From Lachnospiraceae bacterium (GTDB lineage: Bacteria > Bacillota > Clostridia > Lachnospirales > Lachnospiraceae): DNA of 64,000 bases. Shown piece by piece: positions 13,556 through 18,698 of this stretch. Made by a program: the position numbers and the translations under genes. Every line of letters begins with the position of its first letter. Position 1 is the first letter of the stretch. Under the pieces are notes generated by a model. It did not search any database and had not been told where the DNA came from. It was given only the letters and a program-made list of their open reading frames with translations. Location of the stretch: assembly GCA_021770785.1 (NCBI GenBank), contig JAETQH010000032.1:30004-94003 (forward strand). Direction: 5' to 3'.

Positions 13556-13736
13556 ATCACAGGTTCCTCCAGTTCTGTTTCAGCCCTTATGCGAAACACA
13601 TAGTTATATTTTATCACAATTTTGCCGGGTTTCCATCTTTTATGCAAGATTTTGCTTTATTTAGCAAAAGAAAAATCAGCGTAAGGCGTTTTGACACCTA
13701 AAAGCATTACATATTCCATTTGTTTTTCTTACCCTC

Positions 13737-13787
13737 TTGACTTTTTGAACGTTGTTCGATACAATAAATTTGAACAACGTTCAAAAA
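13737..13787 (+). promoter_or_regulatory. SigA-type promoter with perfect TetR-type inverted-repeat operator
   Basis: TTGACT (13737-13742)-17 bp-TACAAT (13760-13765); TTTTTGAACGTTGTTC (13742-13757) and its exact reverse complement GAACAACGTTCAAAAA (13772-13787). Confidence 0.85.
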
Positions 13788-13798
13788 AGAGGTATCCT

Positions 13799-14371
13799 AT
13801 GGACAATAAAGAAGCAATCATACAGGCAACGATTGAACTCATCGAAGAAAACGGTGACCGTTTGGAAGAAATTACAATTCGTGAGATATGCAAAAGAGCC
13901 AATGTCGGATTAGGTCTTGTGAATTATCATTTCGGAAATAAGGATAAGCTCATTGAGCAATGCGTTGAGCGTATAATAAACGGGATTGTGGAGCAATTTC
14001 AGCACATACAGGAGAAAACGGAGGGGCTTACACCCTTTGAGAAACTGGAGTATCTCGGCAATATGACCCTTGATTTTCTGTTTGAGCATTATTCTGTATC
14101 CAAAATCTCTGTTCTTACCGATATGCAGACACCAAAAAGCAATGACAATACGAGCAGAACTTATGCGGCGTATTTGCCTCTTGTTGCAGCTTGCCGCCCC
14201 GACCTCGATGAAGCAGCCATAAAACGAAAGACCTTCTATTTGATTACGGTTATGCAGCAAACATTTTTGCGGTATGAAGTCATATCCCAGATGCTGGGTG
14301 TTGACCTTAGAGAAAGAAAAAGCCGCAAAGCATTTCATACACAGGTCTTGCACGATATTTTTGAGGTATAA
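13799..14371 (+). CDS. TetR/AcrR family transcriptional regulator
   Basis: MDNKEAIIQATIELIEENGDRLEEITIREICKRANVGLGLVNYHFGNKDKLIEQCVERI. Confidence 0.93.
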   Translation: MDNKEAIIQATIELIEENGDRLEEITIREICKRANVGLGLVNYHFGNKDKLIEQCVERIINGIVEQFQHIQEKTEGLTPFEKLEYLGNMTLDFLFEHYSVSKISVLTDMQTPKSNDNTSRTYAAYLPLVAACRPDLDEAAIKRKTFYLITVMQQTFLRYEVISQMLGVDLRERKSRKAFHTQVLHDIFEV

Positions 14372-14374
14372 TCA

Positions 14375-15091
14375 ATGAATATTACTGTGATAAACGGAAC
14401 AGAAAAGCACGGAGTGACCTATCGGCTGAAGGAGATTTTTTTGTCAGAGTTCAGGGATAAAGCGAACATCACGGAATACTATCTCCCAAAAGCTTGTCCT
14501 AGCTTCTGCACCGGGTGCACAAACTGCATATTAAAGGGAGAAAGCACCTGCAAAGACGCAGACAAAATAAGAAGTATCGATAAATCACTTTTGGAAGCGG
14601 ATTTGATTGTAATGACCTCTCCGGCGTATGTGTTTCACGCTACGGGTGCCATGAAAACATTCCTTGACCATTTTGCCTACCGTTGGCTGCCACACCGCCC
14701 CGCTCCGGAAATGTTTGGGAAGCGGGCGTTCATCCTAACACAATGCTTAGGGCAAGGAGCAAAATCTGCTGCAAAAGACATGAAGGATAGTTTATCCTGG
14801 TGGGGTATATCCAAAATTGAGGTATTTACCGGTGCATTGATGAGCGATATCGTCTGGGAAAAGCTTTCTGAAAAGAAACAATCCCAGCTTACAAGAAAGG
14901 TGAAAAGACTTTCCCGAAAGTTTGCACAGATTGATTACACGAAACCTGCACACACAAATTTGATTACCAAAGTCAAGTTTTCATTCTGCCGTGTTATGCA
15001 GAAATCATTACATAAATCAGACCCCGAATACCTCGACGGGCAATATTGGTCGCATCAAGGCTGGCTTGACAACATCAGACCGTGGAAATAA
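14375..15091 (+). CDS. NADPH-dependent FMN reductase / flavodoxin-like oxidoreductase
   Basis: NITVINGTEKHGVTYRLKEIFLSEF, CPSFCTGCTNCILKGESTC, TSPAYVFHATGAMKTFLDHFAYRW. Confidence 0.85.
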   Translation: MNITVINGTEKHGVTYRLKEIFLSEFRDKANITEYYLPKACPSFCTGCTNCILKGESTCKDADKIRSIDKSLLEADLIVMTSPAYVFHATGAMKTFLDHFAYRWLPHRPAPEMFGKRAFILTQCLGQGAKSAAKDMKDSLSWWGISKIEVFTGALMSDIVWEKLSEKKQSQLTRKVKRLSRKFAQIDYTKPAHTNLITKVKFSFCRVMQKSLHKSDPEYLDGQYWSHQGWLDNIRPWK

Positions 15092-15171: not shown

Positions 15172-15220
15172 AAAAAACAGCCGCCCTGCCCCCGTCAAGG
15201 GGGGGGACGGCTGTTTTCTT
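15172..15220. terminator. bidirectional terminator between convergent genes
   Basis: AAAAACAGCCG ccctgcccccgtcaagggggggga CGGCTGTTTTCTT. Confidence 0.75.
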
Positions 15221-16511
15221 ATTTCTCCAATTCCCAAATATGTTTATCATGCCGAAAATACAGACACACCGCAATCCCTGCAAAGGCAATCACGAAAAAC
15301 AAAAACGCTGCTCCCGAGCCTTTCCCCTGCCCGAACAGCCGGATTAGAATGCTGTCACTGCTGCAGGCTGCCATCAGTGGTTCAAACACTTTATCCACCA
15401 GCAGTCCTCCTAAGAAATATCCCACCGGAATCGTAAAAAACTGGAAAGAATTCCGCACGGAATACACTCTTCCCTGCATTTCCTCCGGCACCTTCAGGCG
15501 CATAATTGCATCCAGATTTGTATTCATCAGCGGTATTGCAATCCATCCGAGGAAACCGCCAATACACCATACCGGCGGAGTCCGTCCTAATGCCAGCATA
15601 AAGTTCTCAAAGCTCATGGAAAACAGCAGGCAGTTGCAGATGACCCGCACCCGGCTTTTCGGTGTTTTCATAAGGGAGGCAAGAATGCTTCCCGCCAACG
15701 TGGATATTCCAATGACCGCATTGACCATTCCAAGGACTTTCTCACTTCCGCCCTCTCTCGATAAAAGCATGGCAGGAAACGCCGCATCATAAACAGATGC
15801 CACCAGATTAATTGCTGCCAGGAAGAAAATTAAATCCAGAATACCCCGTTCCTTTTTCAGGTAAACAATTCCCTGCTTTGCGGAGGTTCTGAGGCTTTCC
15901 TGTTTCTGCACTTTCTCTCCGCCCTTCGGTATCCGTATTGCAAAGGCAAGTACGAGGAATGCCACCGTAAAGGTAAACAAATCGAAAGCAAACACAACAT
16001 TCATGCCTGCAAGCCCTAAAACAGCCGTCGCAATAATCGGCGTCAGAATAGAATTTAATGCGTTGGAAAAATAGCGCAATCCGCCGACTTTCTGATAGTG
16101 CTTCTCAGGAAGCACCCTTGTCACCGCCACCTCCGACGCAGGCTGCTGCACCGTATTCATCAGCCCGATGACTACATTTAAAAGATACAGATGCCAGATT
16201 TGAAGCTGCCCCTTTTGCAATAAAATTAAGGTAACAACCGTAGTTGCCGCTGCAATCGTATCACAAACCAGCATGGTTTTCTTTTTGTCCCACCGATCAC
16301 TCAATGCCCCTGCAAATATAGAGAATATAACATAGGGGGCATAAGAACAAACCATCAAAAGCGCTGTCTTAAGCGCTGACCCCTCCTGGCTGTAAGACCA
16401 GACCACCAGGGCATAGCTTGTCATACTGCTTCCCAAGCCGGAAAATGCCTGGGTAATCCAAAGCAACAAGAATGTCCGCATTTCCAATAATGTATTTTTA
16501 TAATTTTTCAT
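15219..16511 (-). CDS. MFS transporter (macrolide-efflux-like)
   Basis: 12-TM pattern, FAGALSDRWDKKKTMLVCDTIAAATTVVTL, LMNTVQQPASEVAVTRVLPEKHYQKVGGL. Confidence 0.88.
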   Translation of the reverse strand: MKNYKNTLLEMRTFLLLWITQAFSGLGSSMTSYALVVWSYSQEGSALKTALLMVCSYAPYVIFSIFAGALSDRWDKKKTMLVCDTIAAATTVVTLILLQKGQLQIWHLYLLNVVIGLMNTVQQPASEVAVTRVLPEKHYQKVGGLRYFSNALNSILTPIIATAVLGLAGMNVVFAFDLFTFTVAFLVLAFAIRIPKGGEKVQKQESLRTSAKQGIVYLKKERGILDLIFFLAAINLVASVYDAAFPAMLLSREGGSEKVLGMVNAVIGISTLAGSILASLMKTPKSRVRVICNCLLFSMSFENFMLALGRTPPVWCIGGFLGWIAIPLMNTNLDAIMRLKVPEEMQGRVYSVRNSFQFFTIPVGYFLGGLLVDKVFEPLMAACSSDSILIRLFGQGKGSGAAFLFFVIAFAGIAVCLYFRHDKHIWELEK

Positions 16512-16563
16512 ATAGACTTTGCTCCTTAAGGTATTCGATATTTTCCCGTATTTCGCAAAGTCC

Positions 16564-16638
16564 CAGGATAGTTATCCTGCTCCATGCTGCCCTATCCTAA
16601 AAGACTCTGCATGGAGCTTCTTCAATACATAGTAACAT
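16564..16638 (-). promoter_or_regulatory. candidate translation-coupled attenuator leader (13-aa uORF + hairpins) for the MFS transporter
   Basis: uORF 16638->16597 MLLCIEEAPCRVF* preceded by AGGAGAAAAGGGGG; 9-bp inverted repeat GCTCCATGC(16579-16587)/GCATGGAGC(16609-16617) whose 5' RNA arm lies in the uORF; palindrome CAGGATAGTTATCCTG (16564-16579). Confidence 0.6.
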
Positions 16639-16869
16639 TTGTATTTCCCCCTTTTCTCCTAATAAACTTATTGTAACACAGGGACTGGGAATGATAAAGT
16701 CTGAAAATTACTTAATCCGATTGTATATTTCAGTTTACGGAATGCCCCTTCTATCGCCCATCCGGCAAAAATAAAACAAGGGCGAAAAGCTTATCCTCAA
16801 GCCTTTCGCCCATCATTATCATAGAAGAATCATATTTACAGACTTTTTTCATAACCTCGGATTTGACCC

Positions 16870-17877
16870 TCAATGATGGCCGCCTCCATGACCAGACTGA
16901 TGATGACCCCCGCCGTTTCCTCCATGACTGTGCTCTCCAGTCTGGGTGCAACCCGCTACCCCACAGGAGTTATGCGTATGGTCTCCAGTCTGGGTGCAGC
17001 CCGCTACTCCGCAGGAGTTATGCGTATGGTCTCCAGTCTGGGTGCAGCCCGCTACTCCACAGGAATTATGCGTATGGTCTCCAGTCTGGGTACAGCCCGC
17101 TACTCCGCAGGAGTTATGCGTATGGTCTCCAGTCTGGGTGCAACCCGCTACCCCACAGGAGTTATGCGTATGGTCTCCAGTCTGGGTGCAACCCGCTACC
17201 CCACAGGAGTTATGCGTATGGTCTCCAGTCTGGGTGCAACCCGCTACCCCGCAATTATGATATGCATGCCCATCATCTGCACTGTGTGGGTAACAGTATT
17301 CTCCGTTATGCACATGCACTCCTGTTTCCGTACACCCTGCTACACTACATATGCCGTGGCTGTGCTCTCCGATTTGCGTGCAGCCGTCAATTCCGCAAGC
17401 TCCATGTGTATGGGCAGTTTCCACCGTGCAGCCTGACACCCCGCAATTATGGTATGCGTGCCCGTCACCTGTGCTGTGTGGATAATAATACTCTCCGTTA
17501 TGTACATGCACTTCTGTTTCCGGACACCCTACTACACTGCATATGCCGTGGCTGTGCTCCCCGATCTGCGTGCAGCCGTCAATTCCACAAAGACCGTGCT
17601 GGTGTACTTCTGTCTGTGTACATCCCGGAATCCCACAGGAAAACGCGACTTTATCTGTCTGAACCGCACTCTTAATCTCTACCTGTGCCGTCTTCCCGTT
17701 CACTACCTGTGCCGTATTCTCGTTCTCTGACTGTACCGTGTCTACAATCTTCGCTTGCACTGCCCCCTTGACTTCCACTGAACTTTTATTCATCTCATAA
17801 GAAACTACGCCACCTGATAGCATCGCAATCGCCACAAACGCACCGGCCAATAACACTTTTTTCTTTCCCATCCTCAT
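16870..17877 (-). CDS. secreted/membrane-anchored Cys/His tandem-repeat protein (putative metal binding)
   Basis: N-term MRMGKKKVLLAGAFVAIAMLSGGVVSYEMN signal/anchor; seven 16-aa repeats CGVAGCTQTGDHTHNS; His/Gly tail HSHGGNGGGHHQSGHGGGHH. Confidence 0.85.
   Translation of the reverse strand: MRMGKKKVLLAGAFVAIAMLSGGVVSYEMNKSSVEVKGAVQAKIVDTVQSENENTAQVVNGKTAQVEIKSAVQTDKVAFSCGIPGCTQTEVHQHGLCGIDGCTQIGEHSHGICSVVGCPETEVHVHNGEYYYPHSTGDGHAYHNCGVSGCTVETAHTHGACGIDGCTQIGEHSHGICSVAGCTETGVHVHNGEYCYPHSADDGHAYHNCGVAGCTQTGDHTHNSCGVAGCTQTGDHTHNSCGVAGCTQTGDHTHNSCGVAGCTQTGDHTHNSCGVAGCTQTGDHTHNSCGVAGCTQTGDHTHNSCGVAGCTQTGEHSHGGNGGGHHQSGHGGGHH
16933..17268. repeat. seven tandem 48-bp repeats within the Cys/His protein gene (last copy degenerate)
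   Basis: gtctccagtctgggtgcaacccgctaccccacaggagttatgcgtatg and near-identical copies at 16933, 16981, 17029, 17077, 17125, 17173, 17221. Confidence 0.95.
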
Positions 17878-18002
17878 CCTCCTCTTTTCTGTATATTTTT
17901 TATCTATAAAAATACTATAGCATGGCAATTTCCTCAAAGTCAATATAGCTGGATACAAATAGTGCCCCAAAAGGAAACATAATGACAATAACTCCTTGTT
18001 TT

Positions 18003-18698
18003 TCACTCTAATCCTTTTCTCCGGTACACTGTCACAAACAAAATTACTGCCACCAGCAGATTTGCCCCGGCAATGCATAAGCTCTCCGACATTTTCTGCC
18101 CGTTCCCCATGGAATTTAACAGCAAACTCATCTGCCCGGTATAACTATATTTTGCTACTTTCGCGATCCTCCCATTAAACATCGCCAGCATGGGAAGAAA
18201 CGCCAGAACCAGCATGACCGGAACCGTCAGGGAAGTTGCCATCATCTGTGTCCTGCTGTAAGTCCCAATCGCCGCCCCTGCCAGTATGGAAATAAGATTT
18301 CCCACTGCCATGGCAGCCAGAAAAAGCGCAAGCTCACTCCCCCGGTAGCCTCCGGCAAATCCGATTACCCCTGCCCCCAGCATACAAATCCCAAAAAGAT
18401 AAATACCTGCTCCCAGAAAATATTCTATGGCTTTCACATCTGACATCAAAAGCACCCGCAGGGTATTTTTTTCTTTTTCTTCCGCAAGAATAGCCGCCAT
18501 ACTCACCAAAGGTGCCATGCCAAGGTACATCACAGCAAAAAGGTTGGCAAAAAAATGCTCCGGCATTCCTTTTATCTCCATGGCATTCTCCATAATCACC
18601 GTCAAAACCGGAAACATTACAAACTGCACTAATATTTCCTTATTTTTAAAGGTATCCTTTCCCTGTTTCCATAAAATTGCTTTTATATGTGTTATCAT
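18003..18698 (-). CDS. ABC-2 type transporter permease
   Basis: 6-TM type protein directly downstream of the ABC ATPase. Confidence 0.8.
   Translation of the reverse strand: MITHIKAILWKQGKDTFKNKEILVQFVMFPVLTVIMENAMEIKGMPEHFFANLFAVMYLGMAPLVSMAAILAEEKEKNTLRVLLMSDVKAIEYFLGAGIYLFGICMLGAGVIGFAGGYRGSELALFLAAMAVGNLISILAGAAIGTYSRTQMMATSLTVPVMLVLAFLPMLAMFNGRIAKVAKYSYTGQMSLLLNSMGNGQKMSESLCIAGANLLVAVILFVTVYRRKGLE

Follow-up and report, generated by a model that had tools for sequence, protein, structure and literature searches.

Which signal would govern the MFS pump gene of a Lachnospiraceae bacterium, and what part would the short open reading frame upstream of it (uORF) play? The gene lies in the 64,000-nucleotide stretch of DNA analysed here (the window). 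An earlier note had read the minus strand upstream of it as a ribosome-mediated attenuator of the pump, beginning with a 13-codon uORF and its Shine-Dalgarno (SD) sequence; that uORF is present as described (16638-16597). The features of the locus, in the order of transcription, are:

16670-16697, minus: promoter-like TTATCA-16-TACAAT, with TG before the -10 (consensus scan only)
16597-16638, minus: leader uORF, MLLCIEEAPCRVF and stop; ATG at 16638, stop TAG at 16599-16597, 13 codons plus stop
16609-16617, minus: A1, GCTCCATGC, 5' arm of helix P1, uORF codons 8-10 (covariation)
16603-16610, minus: A2, GCAGAGTC, partner of C in the predicted ON state (covariation)
16592-16598, minus: S2 5' arm, AGGATAG, overlapping the uORF stop codon (covariation)
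16579-16587, minus: B, GCATGGAGC, 3' arm of helix P1 (covariation)
16565-16571, minus: S2', the S2 3' arm, CTATCCT (covariation)
16555-16562, minus: C, GACTTTGC, shared strand, predicted to pair with D (OFF) or A2 (ON) (covariation)
16515-16527, minus: D, AAGGAGCAAAGTC, SD and spacer of the MFS gene (covariation, and co-adapted partners in the Cat, Vat and Cfr leaders)
15219-16511, minus: MFS efflux pump, 430 aa (PF07690; Mef-like, TIGR00900 below cut-off)

Architecture of the pump leader

The leader runs from the uORF through A1 (CTCCATGC), A2 (GCAAAGTC), the stop codon, S2, B, S2', C, a linker and D to the pump start, with A1 and A2 overlapping in GC. A purine-rich SD, AAGGGGG, lies about 8 nt 5' of the uORF ATG in the window, and the pump SD, AAGGAG, is found at 16527-16522 ahead of the MFS ATG at 16511. 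Within D, the part that pairs with C is GCAAAGTC (16522-16515), and the resulting C:D helix (GGACTTTGC:GCAAAGTCT), an SD-side helix absent from the earlier note, shuts the pump start site. The nearest named resistance family to the pump is Mef(A) (E 5.8e-32, far below the family cut-off). From its position, the promoter-like site would put the transcript start just 5' of the uORF; the consensus scan returned 2 sites versus 1.4 expected by chance, the one at 16670 being weak and near chance alone, and a -10-like site lies 5' of 40 of 65 orthologous uORFs (about 25 expected). A terminator-like site 5' of the leader (16811-16780) ends the preceding gene (16870-18078, minus), whose product carries many near-identical Cys/His-rich repeats (CGVAGCTQTGDHTHNS) and has no match in Pfam or NCBIfam. 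Genes for a TetR-type regulator and an FMN reductase-like protein (13691-15091, plus) are convergent with the pump gene.

Conservation of the leader and its use by other genes

A scan with one genome per species recovered 80 pump loci of 50-97% identity, mostly from Lachnospiraceae and Oscillospiraceae, with a few records labelled Christensenellaceae, Treponema or Alistipes and many metagenome-assembled genomes; their upstream regions are strikingly similar. A covariance model built on 50 orthologous leaders matches 74 of the 80 loci, and two of the remaining six have almost no upstream sequence. Because 74 of the 80 loci match and the core helices are each about 98% paired or better in 65 parsed leaders, the leader is not a chance pattern. 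It is absent from remote MFS paralogues (below about 40% identity), and occurs in 24 of 392 genomes of an even class sample and in 5 of 399 of a phylum-wide one. The window and ten orthologous loci match none of the 4227 Rfam models at the gathering score, and the literature searched gives no earlier description of the leader; subscription papers or unnamed motifs from large screens (for example, PMC8040213) may contain one. The leader belongs to an RNA switch that is widely conserved in gut Clostridia and apparently undescribed. Two loci (L133, L166) retain the leader intact but have just the C-terminal part of the pump gene behind it, which looks like a deletion of the remainder.

Three helices, A1:B (P1), A2+S2:S2'+C and C:D, are mutually exclusive and all conserved, with compensatory or one-sided changes. 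Counted on a tree of the pump proteins for the 65 parsed leaders, P1 has 99.8% of the cells of its eight core pairs paired and shows 7 compensatory branch changes, and C:D is 98% paired and shows 4, figures biased towards pairing by the placement of B, C and D partly by complementarity (at least six of eight bases). A2:C pairing is free of this selection; it is 98.8% paired and shows one-sided changes (45) but none that are double, the pattern expected since strand C must fit two partners. For unrelated column pairs the means are 0.11 compensatory changes and 3.8 breaks, and column counts with slid and shuffled controls agree with the tree result. S2 varies by clade (GGATAG/CTATCC, GGGCAG/CTGCTC, GAGGAC/GTCCTC, GGAACAG/CTGTTCC and AAGGCG/CGCCTT). 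The perfect 9-bp hairpin of the earlier note, GCTCCATGC (16617-16609) with GCATGGAGC (16587-16579), is confirmed as P1, and its proposal that AGGATAG (16598-16592) can pair with CTATCCT (16571-16565) holds, these being the two arms of S2. The same note had paired GCTCC of the uORF with GGAGC of the pump SD; this is possible in most leaders, but changes on the two sides do not track each other (1 double change versus 7 breaks on the tree), and as the main lock we rejected it in favour of the better supported C:D.

All 65 parsed leaders contain a short uORF, most commonly of the form M-x-L-x-x-x-x-APC(K/R)V-stop. An SD precedes all but one of these uORFs and every one has a start codon (CTG in L111); most terminate just 3' of A2, and their length 5' of A1 differs by whole codons among leaders. 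In three loci (L034, L041, L047) the stop after A2 is lost and the frame continues through B, with the RNA elements still conserved. Codon 3 has T at its second position in 63/65 leaders and is free at its third (30 changes on the tree); judged by this codon pattern, Leu3 is conserved as an amino acid. A different pattern is seen at codons 5 and 6 (16626-16621 in the window): codon 5 is ANT (Ile, Ser, Asn or Thr) in 71/87 leaders and codon 6 is GNN (Ala, Val, Asp, Gly or Glu) in 86/87, with 2, 11 and 5 changes on the tree at the first, middle and third bases of codon 5 and 1 at the first base of codon 6. This looks like a constraint on codon or nucleotide rather than amino acid. An NTG start codon in the +1 frame was considered as the cause of the conserved A-N-T-G and rejected: no SD is suitably placed, and TTG is the commonest form.

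The covariance model, together with an architecture search, also placed the switch ahead of other resistance-type genes. It lies 5' of CatA-like acetyltransferase genes at three loci (L131, L132 and L134, with uORFs MKFCIAVFPCKA, MKRGLDAAPCEA and MKRGLDNAPCEA, each ending in a stop), of which L132 and L134 have a Vat-like gene next. It also precedes a Cfr methylase gene downstream of an Lsa-type ABC-F gene (L135) and operons encoding a CD3324-family protein and a Vat-like acetyltransferase (L168, L173, L182). The Cfr protein scores above its NCBIfam cut-off; the CatA-like and Vat-like proteins score below theirs and so are named by homology. With L182 (positions 780-910 of that locus, on contig C80) the window's own genome carries the switch a second time, a copy missed by the genome model search. 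In most non-pump leaders C is matched to a different SD, for example AGGGCTC with GAGCCTT in L168 and GCTTCCT with AGGAAGC in L135. The Vat and Cfr leaders have their uORF in another frame, with a shared conserved LHA motif (MCVNTQKKNKAFLHAK..., MCINEKRKNDVFLHAK..., MKMQQNEALLHAES and stop, MFNMNIQVTHNRLHAK...). The leader is absent from 27 other CatA homologues and the Pusillibacter CatA, only three close relatives having it, from most Vat relatives, and from upstream of the plasmid genes cfr(C) and cfr(D) (L178, L181).

A predicted ribosome-dependent switch and competing mechanisms

The earlier note had proposed folding the leader with a ribosome footprint on the uORF. In such constrained folds, in which a ribosome-sized stretch is blocked along the leader and the RNA refolded, the start site opens at one narrow position only. 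The window leader is ON only with the leading edge at A1+4 to A1+6, where the A2:C probability is 0.79, 0.93 and 0.96 and that of C:D 0.04-0.21; at other edge positions A2:C is below 0.25, and with earlier or later blocks, including a ribosome at the uORF stop, C:D remains formed. The leading edge is taken as 15 nt past the first P-site base, so the ON position corresponds to a P site at codon 5 and an A site at codon 6, that is, to ANT-GNN; a shorter edge shifts the site by about one codon. In about 30% of leaders A2:C never exceeds 0.5 even at the best window, and start-site accessibility rises modestly on average, from 0.33 to 0.49. Among the Vat and Cfr leaders the predicted P-site codon is AAT in 3/4, and the fold scan gives a clean switch in L168 (0.25 to 0.75), a weak one in L135 and little or only broad opening in L173 and L182. 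For the Vat-type leaders we also considered a stall on the start codon, since L173 and L168 have an ATG at A1-10 and such a stall would suit start-codon-arresting drugs; it was rejected because L182 has ATA there and the longer LHA uORF crosses in another frame.

These folds suggest the following scheme. Without drug, ribosomes would complete the uORF, A1 would pair with B, and the free C would pair with D, closing the pump spacer and start region (OFF). A peptidyl-transferase-centre drug would stall the ribosome at about codon 5, with codon 6 in the A site; its leading edge would mask A1 and leave B single, and A2+S2 would pair with S2'+C, removing C from D so that the pump is translated (ON). 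As modelled by folding, a ribosome held in the uORF would thus free the start region; translation of the uORF, the stall, the drug class and export of the inducing drug by the pump we infer. The earlier reading of the locus as a ribosome-mediated attenuator agrees with the uORF in 65/65 leaders, the covariation in three competing helices and the constrained folds, and the leader is very probably a translational attenuator in which a ribosome stalled by drug at about codon 5 frees the pump start through helix exchange.

Other mechanisms would need the same elements to act differently. If transcription were attenuated as in mef/msr(D) or ermK, the stalled ribosome would block a terminator hairpin; the pump is Mef-like and several ABC-F resistance genes use a terminator-based layout (PMC12421871), but there is no terminator between uORF and pump in the window, the only such site (16811-16780) being upstream, only about one leader in seven has a T-run of at least five between C and D, and C:D shuts the start region instead. 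With no terminator in the leader the attenuator is therefore read as translational, and the transcriptional form is highly improbable. Just as improbable is a riboswitch or other ribosome-free RNA sensor to which the uORF would be incidental. Strong conservation of the RNA, which the stop losses in L034, L041 and L047 leave intact, would suit such a sensor; against it, SD, start and frame are kept, lengths change by whole codons, Leu3 is constrained as an amino acid, a different uORF, with a conserved LHA motif of its own, is maintained in the Vat and Cfr leaders, and folding predicts the OFF state except when a ribosome-sized block is placed at a single position. Cys10, present in most leaders, and the frequent Cys4 might recall a trp-type leader sensing cysteine starvation, a reading that we regard as scarcely credible: Cys4 gives way to Met, Ala, Ile, Glu or other residues, Cys10, for which L066 and L089 have Arg, falls where A1 and A2 overlap and are paired, a stall at Cys10 puts the ribosome edge at a predicted OFF position, and the genes sharing the switch are for drug resistance, not amino acids.

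Candidate inducers and relation to known leaders

For the translational attenuator, the candidate inducers are narrowed by the company that the leader keeps. Phenicols, streptogramin A and the lincosamide/pleuromutilin group, the drugs on which CatA, Vat, Cfr and Lsa act, all target the peptidyl-transferase centre. Since the genes sharing the leader all confer resistance to such drugs, this class is the likeliest inducer, ahead of macrolides; that peptidyl-transferase-centre drugs are both inducer and pump substrate is our best guess, made through guilt by association. The same attenuator induced by a macrolide seems unlikely: macrolides stall ribosomes on short nascent chains and the pump is nearest Mef(A) among named resistance families, though below the cut-off, but no Erm or Msr is found among the genes sharing the leader, and CatA, Vat and Cfr act on other drugs.

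Phenicols and oxazolidinones arrest ribosomes by a rule of penultimate Ala, less well Ser or Thr (PMC8987054), and this Ala rule misses the predicted stall position. We rejected it as proof of a phenicol inducer: following the rule, Ala6 would require a P site at codon 7 and Ala8 one at codon 9, and either position is predicted to be OFF. A paenilamicin- or orthosomycin-like inducer, considered for the GNN A-site codon, was also set aside as an analogy only: no protection against paenilamicin is known for CatA, Vat or Cfr. Paenilamicin stalling is strongest with G as the first base of the A-site codon (PMC11581978). One switch served by at least two uORFs and frames might itself mark a common sensor of peptidyl-transferase-centre drugs ahead of pump, acetyltransferase and methylase genes, in which the ANU-GNN pair of P- and A-site codons, through tRNA or mRNA identity, sets the stall instead of the nascent peptide; we hold this as a doubtful idea.

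The mechanism is already known, as in the ermC, cmlA, fexA and cat attenuators (PMC5418344). Like ermC, with its ErmCL leader, the locus combines a short uORF, exclusive hairpins and no terminator with a resistance-gene start that a stalled ribosome frees in ermC (PMC5418344) and would free here, but the uORF, the elements and the gene are others, strand C has A2 and D as alternative partners here, and the variable helix S2 is an addition that stabilizes the predicted ON state. The cmlA/fexA and cat attenuators likewise control an MFS exporter or a chloramphenicol acetyltransferase by translational attenuation (PMC5418344); compared by description, they differ in that one Clostridia leader family here serves pump, CatA-like, Vat-like and Cfr genes. 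The streptococcal mef/mel (msr(D)) leader also places a uORF 5' of an MFS pump, one that belongs to the same broad family (PMC4335068), but its control is transcriptional with a terminator. Of the erm/mef-type likeness drawn in the earlier note, the ermC half therefore stands; with a leader lacking a terminator and control read as translational, the mef/msr(D) half does not. In Escherichia coli, toiL of topAI-yjhQ similarly answers several classes of ribosome drug through one uORF and a change in start-site structure (PMC12121999); its genes and bacteria are different, and it also uses Rho-dependent termination. What we did not find in Rfam or the literature searched is the leader family, its sharing by several resistance-type genes with two uORF frames, and the codon signature.

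Inducible resistance in gut Clostridia is poorly mapped. The switch flags an uncharacterized pump family as a likely exporter of peptidyl-transferase-centre drugs, and its covariance model can be used to find more inducible resistance genes. The leader also lends itself to direct tests of codon-specific ribosome arrest by individual drugs, and the conserved ANU-GNN pair at the predicted stall site poses a sharp question.
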